DNA of 25,800 bases, from positions 1-25,800 of the forward strand of contig CALFSV010000420.1 of the NCBI GenBank assembly GCA_937916485.1. Direction: 5' to 3'. The notes under the pieces were generated by a model. It made no database searches. It saw only the letters and a list, made by a program, of their open reading frames with translations, and was not told the DNA's origin. Of this stretch, positions 14,031-24,677 are shown in pieces. Position 1 is the stretch's first letter. The number at the start of each line of letters is the position of its first letter. The stretch is from an uncultured Paracoccaceae bacterium (GTDB taxonomy: Bacteria > Pseudomonadota > Alphaproteobacteria > Rhodobacterales > Rhodobacteraceae). The position numbers and the translations under genes are program-made.

Positions 14031-14061
14031 CATTTGATCGTTTGGTCAAAACTTGCCAAGA

Positions 14062-14098
14062 CCCCGGTGGCATGCAACGGTTTCGCATGCGACCGGGG
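14062..14098 (+). promoter_or_regulatory. Hairpin overlapping the deoC ribosome binding site
   Basis: CCCCGGT (14062-14068) pairs with ACCGGGG (14092-14098) and GCATGC (14070-14075) with GCATGC (14085-14090), with one G-G mismatch and a 9-nt loop. The 3' arm shares GGGG with the deoC ribosome binding site (GGGGAGGG, 14095-14102). The hairpin could restrict translation, or act as a terminator/attenuator after the AraC gene. The two GCATGC-containing half-sites also form a direct repeat at 15-bp spacing, a possible AraC-family site. Confidence 0.55.
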
Positions 14099-14109
14099 AG
14101 GGCCATGGC

Positions 14110-15129
14110 GTGCAGACTGAGACCACTTCTATAGCTGGGACAGGTACCGGGAAAAGGGCTGATACCGCTCAGTTGCCCCAGGTCCATCTGCCACGAAACG
14201 CGGGAATGGAGCTTGACCTCGACTGGGTCGCCCGGGTGCAGGCCAATACCTCGGCGATCGAGAGGCGGGCCCAGACCTTGCCGGGCCGCCGGTCGGTCAA
14301 GAAGGACTGGCAGGCAGCATGGCTGTGCAAGGCCATCTCGCTGATCGACCTGACGACCCTGTCGGGCGATGATACGGTCGGCCGGGTCCAGCGCCTGTGC
14401 GCCAAGGCCCGACAGCCGGTGTCGCCGATGATCCTGGACAAACTGGGCATGACCGGCCTGACGGTTGGGGCCGTCTGCGTCTATCACGACATGGTGCCAG
14501 TTGCGGTCGAGGCCCTCCGGGGCTCGGGCATCCCGGTGGCCGCAGTCTCGACCGGCTTTCCGGCTGGATTGTCGCCGTTTCACCTGCGCCTTGCCGAAAT
14601 CGGCGAAAGTGTTGCGGCGGGTGCCGCCGAGATCGACATCGTTATCTCACGTCGCCATGTGCTGACAGGCAACTGGCAGGCGCTTTATGACGAGATGCGG
14701 GCCTTTCGGGCCGCTTGCGGCGATGCCCATGTAAAGGCCATCCTCGCCACCGGGGAATTGGGCACCTTGCGCAACGTCGCCCGGGCAAGCCTGATCTGCA
14801 TGATGGCAGGGGCGGATTTCATCAAGACCTCGACCGGCAAGGAGGGCGTCAACGCGACCCTTCCCGTTACCTTGACGATGATCCGGGCGATCCGGGACTA
14901 TCAGGCCCGCACCGGGTTTCTGGTGGGCTACAAGCCCGCGGGCGGGATATCAAAGGCCAAGGACGCGCTGGTTTACCTGAGCATGATCAAGGACGAGCTG
15001 GGCGAACGCTGGCTGCAACCGGATCTGTTCCGCTTTGGGGCGTCGTCCCTTTTGGGAGATATCGAACGGCAGTTGGAACACCATGTGACGGGGGCCTATT
15101 CAGCCTCCTGGCGACATGCCCTTGCCTAA
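14110..15129 (+). CDS. deoC: Deoxyribose-phosphate aldolase
   Basis: The 339-residue protein is a class I aldolase that splits 2-deoxyribose-5-phosphate into glyceraldehyde-3-phosphate and acetaldehyde. Catalytic landmarks are EIDIVIS (Asp176), VKAILATGEL, DFIKTSTGKEG with the Schiff-base Lys239, and GYKPAGGI with Lys275. The length is typical of longer deoC types, with an N-terminal extension. The GTG at 14110 is the best start: GGGGAGGG lies 7 nt upstream. An open frame extends to 14053, but no ribosome binding site is present there. An AraC gene precedes it and an aldehyde dehydrogenase follows 53 bp later, which fits a deoxyribose or deoxynucleoside breakdown operon. Confidence 0.95.
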   Translation: MQTETTSIAGTGTGKRADTAQLPQVHLPRNAGMELDLDWVARVQANTSAIERRAQTLPGRRSVKKDWQAAWLCKAISLIDLTTLSGDDTVGRVQRLCAKARQPVSPMILDKLGMTGLTVGAVCVYHDMVPVAVEALRGSGIPVAAVSTGFPAGLSPFHLRLAEIGESVAAGAAEIDIVISRRHVLTGNWQALYDEMRAFRAACGDAHVKAILATGELGTLRNVARASLICMMAGADFIKTSTGKEGVNATLPVTLTMIRAIRDYQARTGFLVGYKPAGGISKAKDALVYLSMIKDELGERWLQPDLFRFGASSLLGDIERQLEHHVTGAYSASWRHALA

Positions 15130-15182
15130 GGCCGCTGCGACGCGGGTGCTGGAAACATGAGTATTTGGGACGAAGCGAAGCC

Positions 15183-17525
15183 ATGACAGTCAAACAGATT
15201 TTCGACACGATGGATTACGGCCCTGCCCCGGAGAGCGCAGCCGAGGCACTGGCCTGGCTGGTGGATATGGGCGACCGCTTTGGCTGCTTTATCAACGGCG
15301 CGTTTACTCCGCCCGGCACCACCTTAGAGAGCCGCAACCCGGCGACGGGCGAAGTGCTGGCCCATGTGACCCAGGCAAGCCAGGCGGATGTGGATGCGGC
15401 TGTGGTTGCAGCCCGCAAGGCCCAGCCCAAGTGGGCAAAGCTGGGCGGTCCGGGTCGGGCCCGGGTGCTCTATGCCATTGCCCGCCTGTTGCAGAAGCAT
15501 TCCCGCCTGTTTGCGGTGCTTGAGACGCTCGACAATGGCAAGCCGATCCGCGAAAGCCGCGATATCGATGTGCCCCTTGCCCAGCGCCACTTCTATTTCC
15601 ACGCGGGCCTGGCCCAGTTGATGGACAGCGAAATGCCGGGCCAAGAGCCGCTGGGTGTCTGCGGTCAGATCGTGCCCTGGAATTTTCCCCTGTTGATGCT
15701 GGCCTGGAAGATCGCTCCTGCGCTGGCGGCTGGCAATACGGTGGTTCTCAAGCCGGCCGAGTATACCTCGCTGACCGCCATGCTTTTTGCGGATATTTGC
15801 CGTCAGGCCGGGGTGCCTAAGGGGGTGGTGAACATCGTGACCGGCGACGGTGCCGTCGGTGAAATGATCGTGGCCGCCGAGGTGGACAAGATCGCCTTTA
15901 CCGGGTCAACCGCCGTGGGCCGCCGCATTCGGGAGGCCACTGCTGGATCGGGCAAGGCGCTGACATTGGAACTGGGGGGTAAATCCCCCTATATCGTCTT
16001 TGACGATGCCGACCTCGACAGCGCGGTCGAAGGTCTTGTCGATGCGATCTGGTTCAATCAGGGGCAAGTCTGCTGTGCAGGATCCCGCCTTTTGGTGCAG
16101 GAAGGAATTGCCGAGACCTTTCATGCCAAGCTGCGCGACCGGATGGACAAACTGCGTATCGGCGACCCGCTGGACAAATGCATCGACGTGGGCGCCATCG
16201 TCGACCCGGTGCAGCTTGCCTCGATCACCCGACTGGTGGAGGCCAATCCGGAGGGCACCCATTACCGCGCCGCCTGTCCCCTGCCTGCCCGGGGGGCCTT
16301 TTACCCGCCCACCCTGATCACCGGCCTGTCGACCTCTTCCCCCCTGATGCAGGAAGAGATCTTTGGCCCGGTCCTGGTGGCGACGACGTTCCGCACGCCG
16401 GATGAGGCTGTCCAGATTGCCAACAACACCCGCTACGGCCTTGCCGCGACGGTCTGGAGCGAGAACATCAATCTTGCCCTCGATATCGCGCCCAAGCTGG
16501 CGGCCGGTGTTGTCTGGATCAATGGCACCAACATGTTCGACGCCGCCGCCCCCTTTGGCGGGGTTCGCGAATCCGGCTTTGGCCGTGAGGGCGGTTGGGA
16601 AGGGTTGCAGGCCTACTCCAGACCCAGGGGCAGCGTGGCAAAGCTGAAGCCTGTCCCGCCCCGGGAAGGCGAAGGCAGCCCTGAGGAGGGGCTGGACCGG
16701 ACTGCAAAGCTATATGTGGGGGGCAAGCAGGCCCGCCCGGATGGCGGCTATTCCCGACCGGTCTACGGCCCGCGCGGCGCTTTGCTGGGTCATGCCAGCC
16801 TCGCCAACCGCAAAGACATCCGCAACGCCGTTGAAGCCACCGGGGCGGCCAAAGGGTGGGCCAAGACAACAGGCCATCTACGTGCCCAGATCCTGTATTA
16901 CATCGCCGAGAACCTGTCGGCCCGCGCCGCGGAATTCGCCAAGCGGATTGACGCCCTGCAAGGGGGCCGTTCAGGTGAGAAAGAGGTGGAGGCTTCGATC
17001 ACCCGCCTGTTCACCTATGCCGCCTGGGCGGACAAGTTCGATGGGCAGGCCCATGGCGTCCCCATCCGGGGTGTGGCCCTCGCCATGCGCGAGCCTGTGG
17101 GCGTGATCGGTGCGCTTTGTCCTGATGACGTCCCGCTGTTGGGGTTGGTGTCGGTCATGGCCCCGGCCATCGCAATGGGCAACCGGGTGGTGCTGGTGGC
17201 CTCAGAGCCCTACCCCCTGGCCGCCACGGACTTTTACCAGGTGCTGGAAACGTCGGACGTTCCGGCAGGCGTGGTCAACATCCTGACGGGCAGCCATGCC
17301 GAGTTGGCCCCGACGCTTGCCACCCATATGGACGTGGACGCGGTCTGGTCCTTTTCCTCGTCCCCGGTGTCGGCCGAGATTGAACGGCGATCGGTGTCCA
17401 ACCTCAAGCGGACCTGGGTCAACAATGGCCAGGACCGGGACTGGATGGCCCTTTTGGGCGAAGGTCGCCCTTTCCTTGAGGCGTCGACAGAGGTCAAATC
17501 TATCTGGATACCCTACGGCGAATAG
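15183..17525 (+). CDS. Two-domain aldehyde dehydrogenase (ALDH16-type)
   Basis: This 780-residue protein is a fusion of two aldehyde dehydrogenase domains. The first (about 30-490) is catalytically complete: VPWNFPL (Asn167), LELGGKSP (Glu263), and FNQGQVCCAG, where Cys297 aligns with the nucleophile. The second (about 507-780) begins with TAKLYVGGKQARPDGGYSRPV and keeps a cofactor-domain-like order. Around the expected nucleophile it instead has VSNLKRTWVNNGQD, with no Cys. That design is known for ALDH16, including a bacterial ALDH16 from Loktanella, a marine rhodobacterium. It lies in one unit with deoC, so acetaldehyde is a likely substrate. The start is inferred from protein homology, since the upstream ribosome binding site is poor and the open frame continues far to the left. 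Confidence 0.93.
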   Translation: MTVKQIFDTMDYGPAPESAAEALAWLVDMGDRFGCFINGAFTPPGTTLESRNPATGEVLAHVTQASQADVDAAVVAARKAQPKWAKLGGPGRARVLYAIARLLQKHSRLFAVLETLDNGKPIRESRDIDVPLAQRHFYFHAGLAQLMDSEMPGQEPLGVCGQIVPWNFPLLMLAWKIAPALAAGNTVVLKPAEYTSLTAMLFADICRQAGVPKGVVNIVTGDGAVGEMIVAAEVDKIAFTGSTAVGRRIREATAGSGKALTLELGGKSPYIVFDDADLDSAVEGLVDAIWFNQGQVCCAGSRLLVQEGIAETFHAKLRDRMDKLRIGDPLDKCIDVGAIVDPVQLASITRLVEANPEGTHYRAACPLPARGAFYPPTLITGLSTSSPLMQEEIFGPVLVATTFRTPDEAVQIANNTRYGLAATVWSENINLALDIAPKLAAGVVWINGTNMFDAAAPFGGVRESGFGREGGWEGLQAYSRPRGSVAKLKPVPPREGEGSPEEGLDRTAKLYVGGKQARPDGGYSRPVYGPRGALLGHASLANRKDIRNAVEATGAAKGWAKTTGHLRAQILYYIAENLSARAAEFAKRIDALQGGRSGEKEVEASITRLFTYAAWADKFDGQAHGVPIRGVALAMREPVGVIGALCPDDVPLLGLVSVMAPAIAMGNRVVLVASEPYPLAATDFYQVLETSDVPAGVVNILTGSHAELAPTLATHMDVDAVWSFSSSPVSAEIERRSVSNLKRTWVNNGQDRDWMALLGEGRPFLEASTEVKSIWIPYGE

Positions 17526-17559: not shown

Positions 17560-18180
17560 CTAACGCCGCCAGCTGCGGAACCAGCGCGAAATGCCAGCCC
17601 GCTGCTCGTCGAAAACGCTGTCGATCTGGTCCAGCCGGGGCTGGATACGCCGCGCCCGAAACCGACGCCAGCGAACGGTGACAGCCCAGCCAATGGCAAA
17701 GAGAACGGTCAGGAAGATGATGTTGAACCAGGGGATCAACCGCGCCTCGGGATCGGCGACCGGGCGGATATCGATGGCGTTGGGGTAGACCGTCAGGTAA
17801 CGGATCCGCCAGCCATAATGGGTGACGACCGCCCAGCGCGGCACTTCGGTCGTCGAAGTCAGATCCTCGGCCTCGGCCTGCAGGTCAGAGCTGTCGAACT
17901 TGAAATAAGGCGGCCAGATCCAGCCCGTATCCTCGTTGCGATAGACCATCACCCTGCCATTGTAGCGGACAGTGTTGATCAGGCGCAGATCGCGTGTTGC
18001 AGCCTCAGCGCTGCCGCTGTCGGCCTGAGCATAGAACAGGCGGTTGTAGGCAGTGAAATCGGTGCGGATCACTTCGGTCGAGACCACCCGCACGATGTCG
18101 CGCTGGGGCAGGACGTAGGACAGGAAGGCTGCCAGCAACGCCAGCACGAGTAACCGGAAGGTCCATTTGATATAGGTCAT
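17560..18180 (-). CDS. DUF1523 family membrane protein
   Basis: The 206-residue protein matches the DUF1523 family, uncharacterised membrane proteins of alphaproteobacteria. A hydrophobic helix near the N-terminus (about 6-24) is followed by a 125-residue domain with YNGRVMVYRNEDTGWIWPPYFKFD and PRWAVVTHYGWRIRYLTVYPNA, probably in the periplasm. A second helix (about 149-168) leads to a basic tail (RWRRFRARR) in the cytoplasm. It is the last gene of the eight-gene unit that includes a AAA+ ATPase, and its stop is 34 bp from the convergent ALDH gene. The function is not known. Confidence 0.85.
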   Translation of the reverse strand: MTYIKWTFRLLVLALLAAFLSYVLPQRDIVRVVSTEVIRTDFTAYNRLFYAQADSGSAEAATRDLRLINTVRYNGRVMVYRNEDTGWIWPPYFKFDSSDLQAEAEDLTSTTEVPRWAVVTHYGWRIRYLTVYPNAIDIRPVADPEARLIPWFNIIFLTVLFAIGWAVTVRWRRFRARRIQPRLDQIDSVFDEQRAGISRWFRSWRR

Positions 18181-18211
18181 GGGGCCAGGCCCTCTGTCGG
18201 CTGTGAGTTGA

Positions 18212-18475
18212 TCAGGTGTAGTTTACCAGATAGAGGATTGTCCCCACGATCACCATGGGGATCACGTAGACGCCAAGGATAAGGCGACGACGGAGCGAGC
18301 TGTCGTAGTCTTTCAATCCGGCCCGGACATAGGCGTCTTTGTCACCATTGGCCCCTTCTTCCAGCCAAGCGGTCTCAAGCTTACCCTTACGCACGGCGCG
18401 AGAATAAAGCGAAACGCTGACGTAGATCACGCTCAGCACCACGAAGGCCATGAAGAACAGCCGGATCACGCCCAT
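18212..18475 (-). CDS. Small two-helix membrane protein
   Basis: The 87-residue product has two hydrophobic helices, about 4-24 and 64-85. They are separated by a hydrophilic stretch of about 38 residues with many charges (RAVRKGKLETAWLEEG and KDYDSSLRRR). I do not recognise the family. The gene starts 3 bp after the stop of the 464-residue gene and is followed by the DUF1523 gene 31 bp later, so it is very likely co-transcribed and coupled to them. A structural or anchoring role in a membrane complex is plausible. Confidence 0.8.
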   Translation of the reverse strand: MGVIRLFFMAFVVLSVIYVSVSLYSRAVRKGKLETAWLEEGANGDKDAYVRAGLKDYDSSLRRRLILGVYVIPMVIVGTILYLVNYT

Positions 18476-18478
18476 CGT

Positions 18479-19873
18479 CTAACTCCTTCTCACTGCGCCC
18501 CAGGGGCCAACCCGTTCGATCAGGGTGTCGGTCTGGGCATCGTCATCGGTTCCGTTTCTGGTTCCGCCCCAAGGCGATGCAGCCGCGCCGCCGGGTTCGG
18601 TCATGGATGCCTCGTGCCCGAAAAGGGCAGCCCGGGTGCCAGCCTTGTCCACCATATATTCGCTGGCCAGAAAGTCAGCGACATAAGCCTGCTTAGCCTC
18701 GGGCCAGCCTGCATAAGCGCGGTAGAACGCCTCTTTGTGGCAGATGAACAATTGCCGGATATCCAGGGGCGAAAGCTCGGCCAGAAGCATATTGACCAAA
18801 TCGGCGTCGGGCACGTCGCGGGCGCGCAGCGTATAGAAATAGGCCGGGTGGTCGCTGTCGATGCTGGGCCAGGCGCCATCTTCCTCGGCCCAGCGGGCCA
18901 GGGCAGCAAGGCCCTTCCACTCGGGCGGAAGGAGTTGGGCGTAGCGGCGACCCAAAAGGCGCAGGTCGCGCCGGCTTGCCCCTTCAAGGTTTTCGCCCAT
19001 GACCCCAGCCAGTTCGGCAACCACAAAGTCCATTTTCTGGTGGAGGATCGCGGCGGCGTCGATGCCACGGGCCTTCACGATCGGCTCTGCCAGTTCGTTG
19101 TCCTGCAGGAACCGCGCAATGGCGGAACGGTCCGAAAAGTCCATCACCTGCGCGATGGGCAAGGTGCCAAGATCGGCCTTGCCCCCGGCTGCAATCAATG
19201 CGGGGTTGGCCACCCCTCGAAACATGTAGATGCCGCCGAAATGAGAAGTCCAGAAATTGTCCTGGGCAAAGGTCATTTCAGACAGCCGCACCGGATTGCG
19301 GGTCAGATCGCCGGTTTCCTTGGCCAGACCGATCATCTGGCCAATCAGAACGTCGTCCCACCAGGCGTTCTCTTCCGTCTTGAACCGGTCGATCATCGCC
19401 CCCAGATTTTTCGCGGTCGCAACGGTGCCCGTCGTCGTGTCAGCCTCGACCGTGATCTTGCGAATGTCGAACAGGCGGGCCGGTGCTTCGACCGTATAGA
19501 CCGAATTCACCAGCTCGCCCGCCACCGCATCGCGGGTCGTCAGGGCAAATAGCTGGGCAAGGTTGTCATTGATGAACTGACGCAGAATGCCCCGCGACGT
19601 CGAGAACGATGCGTTGAGAAGGGGGGCCGTCCGTTGGTCGGTGGTCAAAAGGATGAACTGTCGGTTCACCCCTTCCTGATTGAGGTAACGGTCATCGTTG
19701 AAGGCGTCGCCGATCTCTGGCGAAAATCCTGAAATGTCGATGTGGAACTCGGTCAAATCGGTCTCTTTGCCCGTCAGCGCCTTGAGCGCACGGTTGTACC
19801 GCTCAACCAGAACCGGGGAATCGACCCGGATGAGGTTGCCGAACATCAGCCCCTTTTCGATCAATCGGCGCAT
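18479..19873 (-). CDS. Uncharacterised soluble protein (resembles DUF6638)
   Basis: The 464-residue protein has no membrane helix and no signal peptide. Features include an N-terminal RRLIEKGLMFGNLIRVDSP and RYNRALKALTGKETDLTEFHIDISGFSPEIGD, an Asp-rich middle, and a C-terminal half with LLGRRYAQLLPPEWKGLAALARWAEEDGAW. I associate this pattern with DUF6638 from memory and cannot confirm the number. The last 40 residues are polar and disordered-looking (EPGGAAASPWGGTRNG). The start at 19873 has an AGAGGGGG ribosome binding site close upstream. It sits within the AAA+ operon, 52 bp after the small membrane gene, so a role as a partner of the ATPase is likely. No catalytic motif was seen. Confidence 0.8.
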   Translation of the reverse strand: MRRLIEKGLMFGNLIRVDSPVLVERYNRALKALTGKETDLTEFHIDISGFSPEIGDAFNDDRYLNQEGVNRQFILLTTDQRTAPLLNASFSTSRGILRQFINDNLAQLFALTTRDAVAGELVNSVYTVEAPARLFDIRKITVEADTTTGTVATAKNLGAMIDRFKTEENAWWDDVLIGQMIGLAKETGDLTRNPVRLSEMTFAQDNFWTSHFGGIYMFRGVANPALIAAGGKADLGTLPIAQVMDFSDRSAIARFLQDNELAEPIVKARGIDAAAILHQKMDFVVAELAGVMGENLEGASRRDLRLLGRRYAQLLPPEWKGLAALARWAEEDGAWPSIDSDHPAYFYTLRARDVPDADLVNMLLAELSPLDIRQLFICHKEAFYRAYAGWPEAKQAYVADFLASEYMVDKAGTRAALFGHEASMTEPGGAAASPWGGTRNGTDDDAQTDTLIERVGPWGAVRRS

Positions 19874-19925
19874 GTTGCCCCCTCTGACCGCACCGCCAGA
19901 TCATACTGCGGCGTATGGCACCATA

Positions 19926-20258
19926 CTACCATTTCTCAGTCACCCAGAACTTAGGCAGGCCAGATAGCGAAAGCACCATGATTGGGCCCCACAATAGTGC
20001 CGAAATCAGCCCCAGGCGCAGAAAATGGGCCATGGCCGGCACGATCCCTTCCTCGAACAGGACGCCGATCGGCACCCCTTGCAGGACATAGAGCAAAAAG
20101 AAGAATCCAGTCCCCAGCGCCAGCATGACCAAGGTGGCCACGAAGGCGAGGATCATCAGGGGCCGGACGCCTTCGGGAAACACAAGGCTCAGGCCACGCG
20201 GAACCAGCCAGCCCACCATCGCCAGCACCAACGCCGGGACAATCAGCCCCTCAGCCAT
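19926..20258 (-). CDS. Small membrane protein with three hydrophobic segments
   Basis: The 110-residue protein has hydrophobic segments at about 4-26, 33-58 and 78-97 and a short polar end (LPKFWVTEKW). I do not recognise the family. The ATG at 20258 was chosen, although the open frame extends to 20372 inside the ATPase gene: it gives a clean membrane protein and its first codons overlap the ATPase stop by 8 bp, so translation is probably coupled. It is one of three small membrane proteins in this cluster. Confidence 0.8.
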   Translation of the reverse strand: MAEGLIVPALVLAMVGWLVPRGLSLVFPEGVRPLMILAFVATLVMLALGTGFFFLLYVLQGVPIGVLFEEGIVPAMAHFLRLGLISALLWGPIMVLSLSGLPKFWVTEKW

Positions 20259-22197
20259 TGCCCTGCGCCTTCTGGGCGACAAAGCGCCGCTTGGCCTCCT
20301 CGGTGCGGCCAAAGTCACGGACCATGTTCTCGATTGCCACTTCGTCCGACTTGTCCGCATAGCGAAATTCACTATCGGCGTAGCGGTTGATTTCCTGAAT
20401 GACCATTTCGACGGAGATCGGTTTGCGCAGGCTTTCGATCATGCTGGATTTGGTGTCGTAGTCTTTGAAAAGGAAACGCTCAGGGTTTTCCATCCATTCG
20501 TCGGGCAGTTCAAAGTCCATTGCCCGCACCTTGACCGCATCGGTGATGTTCTTGATCGCCCGACCCGTAAAGCGGGGATCGGCCTCCTGAATGCCCTTGA
20601 GGTAAGTCCCCAGTTTGGTGATCGTATCCAGCTTGCCAATATCGCGGCTCACCCGCTCATAGACCCTGATCAGTCCGTCCTCTTTGGGGCGGTTGTGGCT
20701 TTCAAAGCTGGCGGCGACAGCCTTCTTGATCTCCTGCGCGGCAAAGAGCTCGTGTTCCCCAAGTGGGATGTCATGCTTTTTGCCCAGAAGCAGGCTGAGA
20801 ATGTCGACATAGTCTTCGCGGGTCTGGGGACCATCGACAAGGAACCGGGCCCCAGCCCGCTGGCGCAGGGCATCATCGACGTTTTCAGGATAGTTCGAGA
20901 ACATGCCAAAGGTGCAATTACCCCGAACCACCGTATTCGCCCCGGCAAAGGCATCCATCAACACCGCTGTAATCTCAAGCTGGCCAGCGCTGGATTGCCG
21001 GTCGCCCCGCTTGCCGGCCAGCGTGTCGATATCGTCGATCGTGCCAAAGCCGATGACACCGGGATCGATGATGCTGTCGATAAAGGCGCGGGCGTTCTGG
21101 CCCGACTTGCCCTGATAGCTGTCGATATTGTCAGTCGACAGGTTCTGGTAGCGAAACACATAACCTGCGACCTGACAGTAGTCGTTGATCAGGCCCGCCA
21201 TCATCTGGATCAGCGTCGTCTTGCCAGTGCCCGGCGCGCCATCGCCCATAAAGGTAAAGATAAAGCCGCCAAGTTCGGCAAAGGGGTTCCTCCGGCGCTC
21301 GAAATCATAGGCCATCAGCATCTTGGCCAGACGCAGCGCCTGATACTTAGCGATATGGTTGCCCACAACTTCGTGGGGCTTCTTGAAGGTCATGGTCAGG
21401 GCAGAGCCGCGGGCCTTGCGGGCCGGTGTGAACCCTTCGATATTGAGGCCATCAGCCTCGACCTTCCAATGCGCGGCGACAAAAGGCTCCAGCCTGGGCG
21501 CATTGGCGGCGCGGCCCGCGACCTTGGTCATCAGGGCCTCTGCAAAGGCCAGCACTGTCGCGACAAGGCGGGGTTCGGTGGTGGCAAAGGCGGCGATGTC
21601 CTGATCAAGCTCCCAAAGGGCGCCGTGCAGGGCAAGCTGGCCGTTCTCGGTCAGCACCTCTTCGACATCGCCAATCTCGACCGTATCTTCGCCCGCGTGG
21701 CTGGCCAGCAGGAATGCCGTCGCATTGGCGAAAGTATATAGGGTGACGAGCGCCTCGGCAGTCAGCATCTCGGAAAATGCCGCCCGCTTGTCCTGCGCCA
21801 GTGCCCCGGCAAGGTTAGAGCGTTTGAGGTCGGCCAGACCGGTCAGGTCAGAGTATTGCTCACCCACGGCGAGGGCGATGGCAACTGCGCGGCGCAGGGT
21901 CGATTGCACCGCGGCCTCAACCGGCGTCACCAGTCCCTCGCCACCGTTGACGCCCTCGATCCGGGGCAAAAGCTGGACCCCTTCGGGACGGGCCTGGCGC
22001 CGGGTGACCAATCCGGGCGTGGTTGAGCGAAAGGCACGTCGGGTTCCGATGCCTGGCGACCGTTCCGGGGCTGGCTCGCTCTCTGCCGATGCGATCCGAG
22101 GGGCGTGATCAAATCCTTCCAGCATCGCAAGGGCAGCTGCGTAATGCTTGCGGATGTCTTCCTCGCGCAGTTCCATCTGATCGCTTGTCTGGCTCAT
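20251..22197 (-). CDS. AAA+ family ATPase with large N-terminal extension
   Basis: The 648-residue protein has one AAA+ module at about residues 305-540. Walker A is GDGAPGTGKTT (318-328, Lys326). Walker B is VIGFGTIDDIDT (381-392), where IDDID replaces the common DE-type ending. A sensor 1 Asn lies in MFSNYPENVDDALRQRAGARF (Asn435), which resembles classical AAA ATPases such as Vps4 and FtsH and includes Arg446 and Arg452 as candidate arginine-finger residues. Helices for the lid follow, with FTGRAIKNITDAV (sensor 2). The first 300 residues are not recognised and contain a polar stretch (about 35-75). There is no membrane helix or protease domain, so it probably remodels a protein or complex. 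The ribosome binding site GGAAG is 6 nt upstream. Confidence 0.92.
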   Translation of the reverse strand: MSQTSDQMELREEDIRKHYAAALAMLEGFDHAPRIASAESEPAPERSPGIGTRRAFRSTTPGLVTRRQARPEGVQLLPRIEGVNGGEGLVTPVEAAVQSTLRRAVAIALAVGEQYSDLTGLADLKRSNLAGALAQDKRAAFSEMLTAEALVTLYTFANATAFLLASHAGEDTVEIGDVEEVLTENGQLALHGALWELDQDIAAFATTEPRLVATVLAFAEALMTKVAGRAANAPRLEPFVAAHWKVEADGLNIEGFTPARKARGSALTMTFKKPHEVVGNHIAKYQALRLAKMLMAYDFERRRNPFAELGGFIFTFMGDGAPGTGKTTLIQMMAGLINDYCQVAGYVFRYQNLSTDNIDSYQGKSGQNARAFIDSIIDPGVIGFGTIDDIDTLAGKRGDRQSSAGQLEITAVLMDAFAGANTVVRGNCTFGMFSNYPENVDDALRQRAGARFLVDGPQTREDYVDILSLLLGKKHDIPLGEHELFAAQEIKKAVAASFESHNRPKEDGLIRVYERVSRDIGKLDTITKLGTYLKGIQEADPRFTGRAIKNITDAVKVRAMDFELPDEWMENPERFLFKDYDTKSSMIESLRKPISVEMVIQEINRYADSEFRYADKSDEVAIENMVRDFGRTEEAKRRFVAQKAQGNG

Positions 22198-22257
22198 CGC
22201 ATCTTCCGTTTTCCTGGCGGCGGCTCGGAACCCGCCTTAATTCGTTCACTCATTCGT

Positions 22258-22279
22258 AAGGTGGGTCATGACCCACCTT
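22258..22279. repeat. REP-like palindromic hairpin, copy 2
   Basis: Arms AAGGTGGGTC and GACCCACCTT are separated by AT. The element differs from the copy at 6965-6986 only at the centre. It lies in the 80-bp gap between the 373-residue gene and the AAA+ gene, directly beside the stop codon of the former (22278-22280). It may set relative mRNA levels of the two halves of the operon. Confidence 0.75.
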
Positions 22280-23399
22280 ACCTGTAACTCAGCACGCGCC
22301 CCTGATCGTTGACCACGAATTTGCGGACATCGTGAAACCCCGGTGGATTGAGTTCGGCGAGGGCCTGATACGGCCGTTCTGGCAAAATGATGGACCGCTC
22401 CATCCGTGTTGCACCTGTCTCGACCCCCTTGTTGGCAAAGGGATCCAGGGCAAATATCTGCCGCTCGACCGTGCCGAACCAGCCAGAGCGTTCCTTTTCA
22501 ACTCTCTCGCTGACCAGTTCTTCCTCGGTCCAGACAAGGGCCCAATCCTCGCCCACGGGTGCCTTTGCACTGGCAAGAACATCACGGATCGGACCAAGTT
22601 GCTGGGTGAATGCGTGCGAATACATCGGACCGATGTGAAACCGGCGTAGCCGCGTCGGGTGCAGATCGTCAAAGTCTCGATCAAAGCCGGTGGCAATCGT
22701 CAACAGCTTAAGGCCGCCGAGCGCCTGCGCCATGAGATGGGCCTGCGCCTCGGGCCAGCGCTTTTCGTCCTTGGGCAGGCCGGTGCGGCCCGTGTCCTCG
22801 ACTTCCATCAGGTAGATGACTGGCAGGTTGACCGCGCTGTCGTAGACCGCCCAGCGGATCAGGTAGCGCCTGCGGACACCGCTGTTGCCCAGCCAGATCG
22901 CCTCGGGGTCGTTGCGGCCCCAGAACAGGCCACCCTTGACCAGTTCCTGATAATAAAGCCGCTGGCTAAGGGCATATTGCAGTTTGGTAGGAATGGCCTG
23001 CTCACCCACGATTGAGCGCACCATGTCGTCCTTGAGGGCCGAAACCGACGGCATCGACGCCAGATGGCCTGGGGCCTGCAGGGCATCATTGGCCATTTCC
23101 ATAAGCTCGGAAAAAACCGGGAAACCACTTTCGACCCGGTCAAACGTTAGTTTGCCGGCATGGGTGAAGCGGCCCGAAAAGTGGTACTTATGGGCCAGAG
23201 CCCGAAACGTCAGGCCCAGGCCCACAAGGTAGCGGGCCAGCGCCTCGACTTCGGGTCGGGACAGGCGGCCTTCGGCCTCCATCGTAGCGGCGACCCTGCC
23301 AAGGTGACCGGTGATCTTGTCGAACTTGCCAAAATAGCGCCGGGTGACACGGGTGTCTTCCAGCTCAAAATGGTCAAGCGACAGATCACTCGTCGCCAT
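22278..23399 (-). CDS. Uncharacterised soluble protein in AAA+ operon
   Basis: The 373-residue protein has no membrane helix and no recognised domain. It begins with ATSDLSLDHFELEDTRVTRRYFGKFDKITGH and contains YLMEVEDTGR, FDRDFDDLHPTRLRRFHIGPMYSHAFT and DWALVWTEEELVSERV, suggestive of a compact alpha/beta protein. The first ATG in frame (23447) is rejected in favour of 23399, which has GAGAG about 6 nt upstream and overlaps the end of the small membrane gene by 14 bp. It is downstream of the coiled-coil and small membrane genes and upstream of the ATPase, so it is likely part of the same complex. No catalytic residues can be named. Confidence 0.78.
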   Translation of the reverse strand: MATSDLSLDHFELEDTRVTRRYFGKFDKITGHLGRVAATMEAEGRLSRPEVEALARYLVGLGLTFRALAHKYHFSGRFTHAGKLTFDRVESGFPVFSELMEMANDALQAPGHLASMPSVSALKDDMVRSIVGEQAIPTKLQYALSQRLYYQELVKGGLFWGRNDPEAIWLGNSGVRRRYLIRWAVYDSAVNLPVIYLMEVEDTGRTGLPKDEKRWPEAQAHLMAQALGGLKLLTIATGFDRDFDDLHPTRLRRFHIGPMYSHAFTQQLGPIRDVLASAKAPVGEDWALVWTEEELVSERVEKERSGWFGTVERQIFALDPFANKGVETGATRMERSIILPERPYQALAELNPPGFHDVRKFVVNDQGRVLSYR

Positions 23400-23598
23400 G
23401 ATCACTCTCGTCAGGGGTCCGCACGAGGCGCGAGGCCCCTTCGGCAAGGCTTAGCCCTACCACAAGGGCAACAAGCGGGGCGAAAGGCAGACCCTGCTTG
23501 ATATACACCACCGCTCCGCCACCAAAAATCGCCGCCTGAACCCAGAAGTTAGGCCATGAGGAAGGACGCCCGATGATCGCCGTTCGGTTCAGGATCAC
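23386..23598 (-). CDS. Small membrane protein
   Basis: The 70-residue protein has a hydrophobic stretch at about 19-53 that could form one long or two short helices (FWVQAAIFGGGAVVYIKQG and FAPLVALVVGLSLAEGA), with an acidic end (TPDESDHGDE). Its start codon overlaps the stop of the coiled-coil gene (ATGA at 23595-23598), and its end overlaps the next gene by 14 bp. I do not recognise the family. The tight overlap on both sides supports that it is real and produced with its neighbours. Confidence 0.75.
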   Translation of the reverse strand: MILNRTAIIGRPSSWPNFWVQAAIFGGGAVVYIKQGLPFAPLVALVVGLSLAEGASRLVRTPDESDHGDE

Positions 23599-24677
23599 TC
23601 GCCTGCCCCATATAGGTTCTTGTCGTGCTTCTCCACGATCTTGGAGAACCGGCGCATGAACCGCTCGTCTGCCTTGGCCTTCTGTTCCAGCACTTCGCGG
23701 GCAAAGACCATGTGGTCTTCGTGTGCTTCGAGCATATCCGCCATCCGGTTGTTGGTGGCTGCGCCGATAGCGGCCATGGCCGTCTGCGCCTCCTGATCAG
23801 TCTGGACCCCAATCTCGTTGATGCGGTGGGCAACGTCCTGCTGCTGGGCGGTCTTGAGCGATTTGGACAGCGCATCATAAAGCACAACACGCTGCTTGGT
23901 ATCTGTCTGCAGCTTGTTAATCAGGACCATCTGTGTCGCGGCCTGGTTTTGCAGGCTGTCGATCCAGGTCTTCCCCTTCTCGATATAGCGTTCCAGCGTC
24001 TGGCTTTTGGCCAGCATCACCTGCTCTTGCTGTACGAGCTCGTTGTAGCGGGTGTTCAGAGCGGCCAGATCGGTCTCAAGCTTGGTCCGGGCGGCGGCAT
24101 CCTGTTCGACGGCAATCTTGTTCTCAAGCTCGATGATCTTGGGGTCCATCGCCAATACCTCTGCCCGTACCGACTCGAGGCTGCCAACGGTTGCTTCCCG
24201 CTCCTCGAGGGTGCCGGTGAGGTTGGTCTCTACCTTAGCCTTCTGGTCGTTCAGAAGGGTGAGCTGGCTGTCCAGCAGGCGGACGATGATGTCGGACTTG
24301 GAAATCAGGTCCTGCAACTTGTCGTCTATCGTCGCCATGCGCATTCTTTCTTCGCGCATTGCATCTGAACGGGCAGAAGAGAAAATACCAACAAAGCTTT
24401 CCCAGCCGGTCTTGTTCCGCATTTCGTCAAAGTCTTTTGAGAACGCGGCCGTCACATCGTCAAGGCCCATGATCAGCTCTGCGATATTGGCATTCATCAG
24501 GTCGGTATGAGCATGGACATCGGTCAGCGTTGCATTCTCGATATCAATACTCACATCCGTCCTGTCGGCCATCTTCTGACGGGCGACTTCGATCCGGCTT
24601 GTCAATTCCGCAATCTTGCTTTGCGCTTCGGCGACCTGGTCTTGGCTTTCCCGAATCTGGGCATCAAAATCGGCCAT
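23595..24677 (-). CDS. Long coiled-coil protein, first gene of AAA+ operon
   Basis: The 360-residue protein is largely helical with heptad-like spacing of hydrophobic residues and many Gln, Glu, Lys and Ala. Coiled-coil stretches are evident at about 5-40, 120-240 and 250-345. There is no signal peptide or membrane helix, so it is likely cytoplasmic and could act as a scaffold or as filament-forming material handled by the ATPase. The family is not recognised. The N-terminus is ADFDAQIRESQDQVAEAQSK and the C-terminus FMRRFSKIVEKHDKNLYG. The start at 24677 has AAAGGACGG just upstream and a possible promoter at 24709-24738. It opens the eight-gene unit. Confidence 0.82.
   Translation of the reverse strand: MADFDAQIRESQDQVAEAQSKIAELTSRIEVARQKMADRTDVSIDIENATLTDVHAHTDLMNANIAELIMGLDDVTAAFSKDFDEMRNKTGWESFVGIFSSARSDAMREERMRMATIDDKLQDLISKSDIIVRLLDSQLTLLNDQKAKVETNLTGTLEEREATVGSLESVRAEVLAMDPKIIELENKIAVEQDAAARTKLETDLAALNTRYNELVQQEQVMLAKSQTLERYIEKGKTWIDSLQNQAATQMVLINKLQTDTKQRVVLYDALSKSLKTAQQQDVAHRINEIGVQTDQEAQTAMAAIGAATNNRMADMLEAHEDHMVFAREVLEQKAKADERFMRRFSKIVEKHDKNLYGAGE

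Follow-up and report, generated by a model that had tools for sequence, protein, structure and literature searches.

The locus and its encoded proteins

The window, a stretch of 25,800 nucleotides from an uncultured Paracoccaceae bacterium (positions 1 to 25,800, forward strand, of contig CALFSV010000420.1, GenBank assembly GCA_937916485.1), contains eight consecutive minus-strand genes around a AAA+ ATPase, which we letter A to H in their order along that strand from 24677 to 17560 (Table 1). A sequence-only reading had proposed the eight as a single uncharacterised membrane-associated system. All of the open reading frames (ORFs) were found at the coordinates it gave, and its overlaps (4, 8 and 14 bp) and gaps (3 to 80 bp) were reproduced: A and B overlap by 4 bp, B and C by 14 bp (taking C from the ATG at 23399) and D and E by 8 bp (taking E from the ATG at 20258), with intergenic gaps of 80 bp for C/D, 52 bp for E/F, 3 bp for F/G and 31 bp for G/H. 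The cluster does recur, but the unit proved to be A-C-D-F; G and H form a separable pair, and B and E are occupants of two hypervariable slots, one between A and C (the A/C slot) and one between D and F (the D/F slot).

Table 1. Features of the eight-gene locus in the window, with their matches and their recurrence in the locus sets described in the text
Feature	Position	Strand	Match or recurrence
A: coiled-coil protein, 360 aa, first cassette-core gene	23595..24677	-	78/80 loci, 77-99% identity
B: membrane protein, 70 aa, hypervariable A/C slot occupant	23386..23598	-	start overlaps A stop, 4 bp
C: soluble protein, 373 aa, cassette core, family unnamed	22278..23399	-	80/80 loci
D: AAA+ ATPase, 648 aa, cassette core	20251..22197	-	Pfam AAA 7.8e-11; 80/80 loci (loci chosen by D)
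Walker A of D, GAPGTGKT, residues 320-327	21217..21240	-	151/152 distinct D genes
Aromatic pore loop 1 of D, YQGKS, residues 361-365	21103..21117	-	151/152 distinct D genes
Walker B of D, variant DDID, residues 388-391	21025..21036	-	DD[IV]D in 152/152
Second region of homology of D, residues 435-447, NYPENVDDALRQR	20857..20895	-	152/152
E: membrane protein, 110 aa, three hydrophobic segments, hypervariable D/F slot occupant	19926..20258	-	overlaps D stop by 8 bp
F: DUF6638 protein, 464 aa, cassette core	18479..19873	-	Pfam PF20343 1e-224; 79/80 loci
GPWG motif, tail of F	18497..18508	-	132/136 loci with G or H; 1/16 without
G: two-helix membrane protein, 87 aa, G-H pair	18212..18475	-	76/80 loci
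H: DUF1523 membrane protein, G-H pair	17560..18180	-	Pfam PF07509 4.3e-67; 77/80 loci

F had been described as an unknown soluble protein, a label that has to be replaced: it belongs to DUF6638 (746.8 bits), as H belongs to DUF1523 (225.3 bits), both above the curated cut-off. D matched the Pfam AAA family (PF00004) at 43 bits with a cut-off of 21.2, and A, B, C, E and G had no Pfam match above the curated cut-off. None of the eight proteins was named by NCBIfam above its cut-offs, and PADLOC and PHROGs gave only weak matches to them (for D, generic AAA). As had been read from the sequence, no protease or secretion family was matched among the eight in Pfam or NCBIfam.

The nearest relatives of D depend on how it is searched. 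As a profile it ranked the i-AAA protease domain (2.1e-5) and VCP-like ATPases first; as a single sequence it found fidgetin-like 1 (2.5e-5), then i-AAA, then katanin and Vps4. Its Walker A and its YQGKS loop align with solved AAA domains, the loop falling on the aromatic pore loop of the i-AAA and VCP-like ATPases. The second region of homology is present in every distinct D gene, and the sequence around sensor 1 is of the classical AAA type, as had been assigned earlier. Since Walker A, the pore loop and the second region of homology are all conserved, pulling of a protein substrate is the best-supported activity that can be predicted for D. Its N-terminal region of ~290 residues had no Pfam match above the cut-off and appeared helical by eye. 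The Walker B form hhhhDE, with its catalytic glutamate, was not found in D, where all the genes compared have two aspartates instead; this DD form, which the D2 domain of NSF also has, suggests that hydrolysis by D is slow and leaves confidence in the fold unaffected.

The AlphaFold2 model of C (predicted local distance difference test, pLDDT, 91.8; predicted template modelling score, pTM, 0.90) is helical in its N-terminal part and beta-rich after it, and that of F (pLDDT 86.6) is a mixed protein with a low-confidence tail. In the Protein Data Bank (PDB) the C model had no Foldseek match at E 0.001 and the F model no significant match, results that do not prove new folds. When A was aligned by hhalign to PspA/IM30 the probability was 3.4 (P 0.013), and coiled coils give weak chance matches; its alignments to TelA (PF05816; probability 1.1 and 1.9) were not significant. 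Of the 52 Pfam families for 19 A proteins, the 25 listed did not include TelA. A gene of the TelA family lies elsewhere in 10 of the 15 cassette genomes tested (L142-L151). A gene of the PspA/IM30 family lies a few kb from the cassette in three loci (L134:6902-7615, L027:3686-4360 and L057:3799-4500), the one in L134 being downstream of H on the same strand.

A four-gene cassette beside a separable membrane pair

A scan for D in one genome per species confirmed 578 stretches; the best 80 of them, all from Rhodobacteraceae and with D identity of 73-97%, were taken as the 80 loci of Table 1, gene presence being scored by tblastn with the window proteins. The AAA-centred set with its membrane partners recurred there with constant order and strand, much as had been anticipated, and most of the missing genes were explained by cut contigs. 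B was found in 1 of these loci and E in 20 by sequence, so neither B nor E is a conserved member of the eight. Comparing the neighbourhoods of ATPase homologues, the check proposed with the sequence-only reading, thus returned the co-occurrence it looked for but redrew the boundaries of the system.

For finer comparison 60 further regions were added, and identical D genes and incomplete loci were removed, leaving 152 loci (136 with G or H and 16 without the pair). The order was A-C-D-F in 150, and C-D-F in the other two, both on contigs cut before A; next after F came G and H in 135 loci and H alone in one. Among 198 genomes of the family, the same for every gene scored, A and D were each found in 83 (both together in 81), F in 90 and H (DUF1523) in 169, and all 83 D-bearing genomes have F. 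Outside the family, relatives of D lie on large replicons of Sinorhizobium, Shinella and Rhizobium (50-52% identity) and of Vibrio (38%), and the four of these regions that were fetched all show A-C-D-F, followed in Vibrio by mfd and interrupted in Sinorhizobium meliloti, where the order is A-C-D, an endonuclease-domain gene, an insertion sequence (IS) element and F. Among 398 genomes sampled from the phylum 26 had DUF6638, and among 385 sampled from the class 7 had a near-full-length D; all 20 longer stretches examined from these (18 from the 26 DUF6638 genomes, 2 from the class scan for D) contained A, C, D and F. Locus L122 is a Mesorhizobium locus. The cassette thus ranges over Rhodobacteraceae, rhizobia and Vibrio, and its genes are clustered far beyond chance.

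G and H behave differently. H was present without F in 81 of the 198 genomes, F without H in two. We examined 12 cassette-free loci, from genomes with H that have no A, D or F, and found G directly before H in 8, in one case within a longer open frame. Their flanking proteins matched those of cassette loci in 14 of 91 cases, 12 on the same side and 2 (both in L232) on the other, and the same-side matches include the aldehyde dehydrogenase gene that adjoins H in the window. As the pair occurs without the cassette and with some flanking proteins in common, the cassette has probably been gained or lost next to a resident G-H pair. The motif GPWG near the end of F tracks the pair closely (Table 1), and the single exception among the 16 loci without G and H (L090) comes from a truncated locus, and both genes are present in its genome (locus L096); another of the 16, the truncated L094, has no GPWG, and its genome has H (locus L138), with no G found. 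This co-occurrence of tail and membrane pair suggests that F binds G-H directly.

Beyond H in the window, at 14053-17525 on the plus strand, a deoC-like ORF and then a long ORF with aldehyde dehydrogenase repeats run end-to-end against the cassette; judged by eye, these genes form a deoxyribose-type catabolic cluster. A gene for tRNA-Ala (GGC) lies at 776-851 on the minus strand.

Two hypervariable slots

Gaps above 150 bp (open slots, those under 150 bp being called nearly empty) were concentrated at two junctions of the loci with G or H: 83 of 134 at A/C and 124 of 136 at D/F, compared with 16 of 136 at C/D and none of 135 at either F/G or G/H. A 521-aa ORF (L075:6401-7966), by eye a multi-span membrane protein, occupies the C/D junction of one locus; this junction usually measures less than 150 bp. 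Sharing between loci was assessed on DNA, with no use of ORF calls, in pairs with an open D/F slot, a segment being counted as shared when at least half of its length matched. In pairs with a D DNA identity of 85% or more, all 125 shared C, F and G+H, but only 6 of 125 shared the D/F slot (103 with no match at all) and 9 of 115 the A/C slot (101 with none). At 75-85% D identity the corresponding values were 1491 of 1491 for both C and F, 785 of 1491 for G+H, 7 of 1491 for the D/F slot and 0 of 582 for the A/C slot. Both are therefore hypervariable slots, whose contents differ even between close relatives.

The contents of the D/F slot follow the operon, whose direction we call plus within the slots (ORF and cluster counts here come from a simple ORF caller). 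Plus-strand ORFs covered 72,885 bp and minus-strand ORFs 13,602 bp; a plus ORF of at least 60 aa was found in 123 of the 124 open slots, and a plus ORF began within -8 to +25 bases of the D stop in 83. Median GC was 0.546 in the slot, below that of D (0.612) and F (0.609), and slot GC fell below that of the neighbouring D in 97 of 124. In the A/C slot, a plus-strand ORF with a hydrophobic segment was present in 72 of the 83 loci with a gap of at least 150 bp, as against 0 of 83 in the minus-strand control. The D/F slot was nearly empty in 12 of the 136 loci with G or H and in 7 of the 16 others, including Vibrio and Shinella, so the core exists without slot content.

What fills the D/F slot is most commonly a small membrane protein, E among them; the largest cluster spans 28 loci and includes the E of the window. 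Single-linkage BLAST joined 15 loci into the second cluster by size; it has relatives on five plasmids, and three of these bear the annotation of a putative phage abortive infection protein. One slot protein in each of two slot sets matched putAbiC directly, and the one from the first set (L058) falls in this 15-locus cluster. Smaller families were AbiJ_NTD4 (3 loci), DUF559, endonuclease-like (3), Mrr (1) and DUF2971 (1), and one slot has DUF433 with a likely PIN neighbour. Counted by cluster, contents of abortive-infection, nuclease or toxin-antitoxin type occupy 24 of the 124 open Rhodobacteraceae D/F slots; the statement that the system has no nuclease or toxin thus holds for the window but not for some of its relatives. 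When the 16 cassettes without G-H were searched with a model built from the three Rhodobacteraceae DUF559 proteins, 7 had a relative in the D/F slot, and 0 of 1377 ORFs outside the slot in those loci matched. In S. meliloti this gap (L086:11079-12824) consists of a DUF559-like endonuclease gene and an ISRm16 transposase; six more cassettes without G-H carry such an endonuclease as S. meliloti does.

Interpretation and comparison with known systems

We favour, at about an even chance of its being right, the reading that A-C-D-F is a protein-remodelling cassette gained or lost beside a separable G-H pair, with the A/C and D/F slots collecting passengers. D would form a ring and pull protein through its pore by the Tyr-Gln-Gly loop, a motif observed in its sequence. 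A, its most conserved partner, would be the likeliest substrate or scaffold, and C and F may act as adaptors. In Rhodobacteraceae, where the cassette lies directly upstream of G-H, F probably docks on the pair by its GPWG tail. Slot DNA is exchanged much faster than the flanking genes; homologous recombination between the conserved flanks would be the simplest route, with the D/F slot serving as a putative landing site for contents that are in many cases small membrane proteins. The defence-type contents (about one-fifth of open D/F slots) probably act alone and borrow transcription from the operon. B and E in the window would be among the slot contents.

Several observations weigh against this account. 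One true exception to the core, in Roseovarius sp. ZX-A-9 (L059), has A, C and D with no F, G or H within 8 kb by BLAST. Seven of the 90 genomes with F gave no D, presumably because of contig breaks or fragments, and in the 198 genomes A occurs without D in two and D without A in two. Hydrolysis by D may be weak, given DD in place of DE in Walker B. At the slots, minus-strand ORFs outcover plus-strand ones in 18 of the 124 open D/F cases, more of the D/F slots are open than would be expected if landing there were purely opportunistic, an endonuclease family turns up again in this same slot across two orders, and PADLOC showed no clear enrichment of slot proteins over a flanking-gene control.

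Some of these points fit better with a modular immune system, an alternative we would put clearly behind but treat as a serious, if tentative, proposal: A-C-D-F would sense infection or envelope damage, and D would release or activate a swappable effector in the D/F slot. Put in full, alphaproteobacteria and vibrios would have in this cassette an immune or envelope-surveillance platform not recognised before, conceivably combining a threading AAA+ ATPase and coiled-coil sensor with an F tail on G-H, a plug-in D/F effector and a fast-changing membrane partner in the A/C slot. That the D/F slot is nearly always open, almost always with a co-oriented ORF that often starts at the D stop codon, that its contents are replaced fast, and that these include putAbiC, AbiJ_NTD4, Mrr, DUF559, PIN and DUF2971 families all speak for it, as do the return of the DUF559-like endonuclease to this slot, and to no other place, in cassettes without G-H and the patchy occurrence of the cassette in the family. 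The same slot also supplies much of the case against, being nearly empty in some loci of both groups, holding occupants that look autonomous (Mrr, DUF433 with its PIN-type neighbour, and the putAbiC family, whose relatives lie on five plasmids that do not figure in the ten records with D) and having as its commonest occupant a protein with no link to defence. The core is strongly conserved, none of its proteins has a strong PADLOC match, and any PADLOC excess in the slots is not clear.

The filament or membrane-shaping device proposed from the sequence, in which D would remodel a polymer of A as Vps4 does ESCRT-III, with small membrane anchors, we consider improbable. It draws on the conserved coiled coil of A, on fidgetin, katanin and Vps4 as near solved relatives of D in the single-sequence search, on the PspA-family genes near three cassettes and on the membrane protein encoded in most open A/C slots. 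Yet the alignments of A to PspA and TelA had very low probabilities, the profile of D puts the i-AAA protease domain and VCP-like ATPases first, and neither of the anchors, B or E, shows sequence conservation. Hardly credible is the view that these are unrelated neighbours by chance and the variable slots annotation noise. Small ORFs in high-GC DNA are indeed easily spurious, and our cluster counts depend on a simple ORF caller, but gene order and co-occurrence hold in Rhodobacteraceae, rhizobia and Vibrio, the conserved order already contradicting chance, and the slot result stands on DNA comparison independent of ORF calls and on a minus-strand control with no hits.

Three families without an assigned role, A, C and DUF6638, are linked here to a single ATPase in one four-gene unit, from which DUF1523 is set apart. 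Should the slots prove to be real sites of exchange, the cassette would be a trap for new abortive-infection and membrane effectors in marine alphaproteobacteria, and reading the D/F slot of each genome would yield candidates with no need of a defence-island search; if the core drives the slot genes, it would be a new modular immune system.

CBASS (cyclic oligonucleotide-based antiphage signaling system) and similar immune systems combine a fixed core with variable effectors, and a conserved core with an exchangeable effector-like gene is what the cassette has in common with them. D gives a weak match to the PADLOC TRIP13 model across its AAA domain (2.5e-6), but searches of the eight proteins with Pfam, NCBIfam and PADLOC matched no cyclase or HORMA protein. 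With the classical threading ATPases (FtsH/i-AAA, VCP/p97 and the Vps4-katanin-fidgetin group) D shares Walker A, the aromatic pore loop 1 and the second region of homology; it differs from them in its DD Walker B, its N-terminal region of some 290 residues, the lack of a detected protease domain and its partners of no assigned function. F and H are members of DUF6638 (PF20343) and DUF1523 (PF07509), Pfam families that likewise have no assigned function, and what is new for these is that DUF6638 travels with A, C and D whereas DUF1523 is separable. Defence hotspots resemble the slots in their fixed flanks and replaceable contents, some of defence type; here, however, the slots are gaps of one or a few genes between co-oriented members of one operon, and small membrane proteins are often what they contain.

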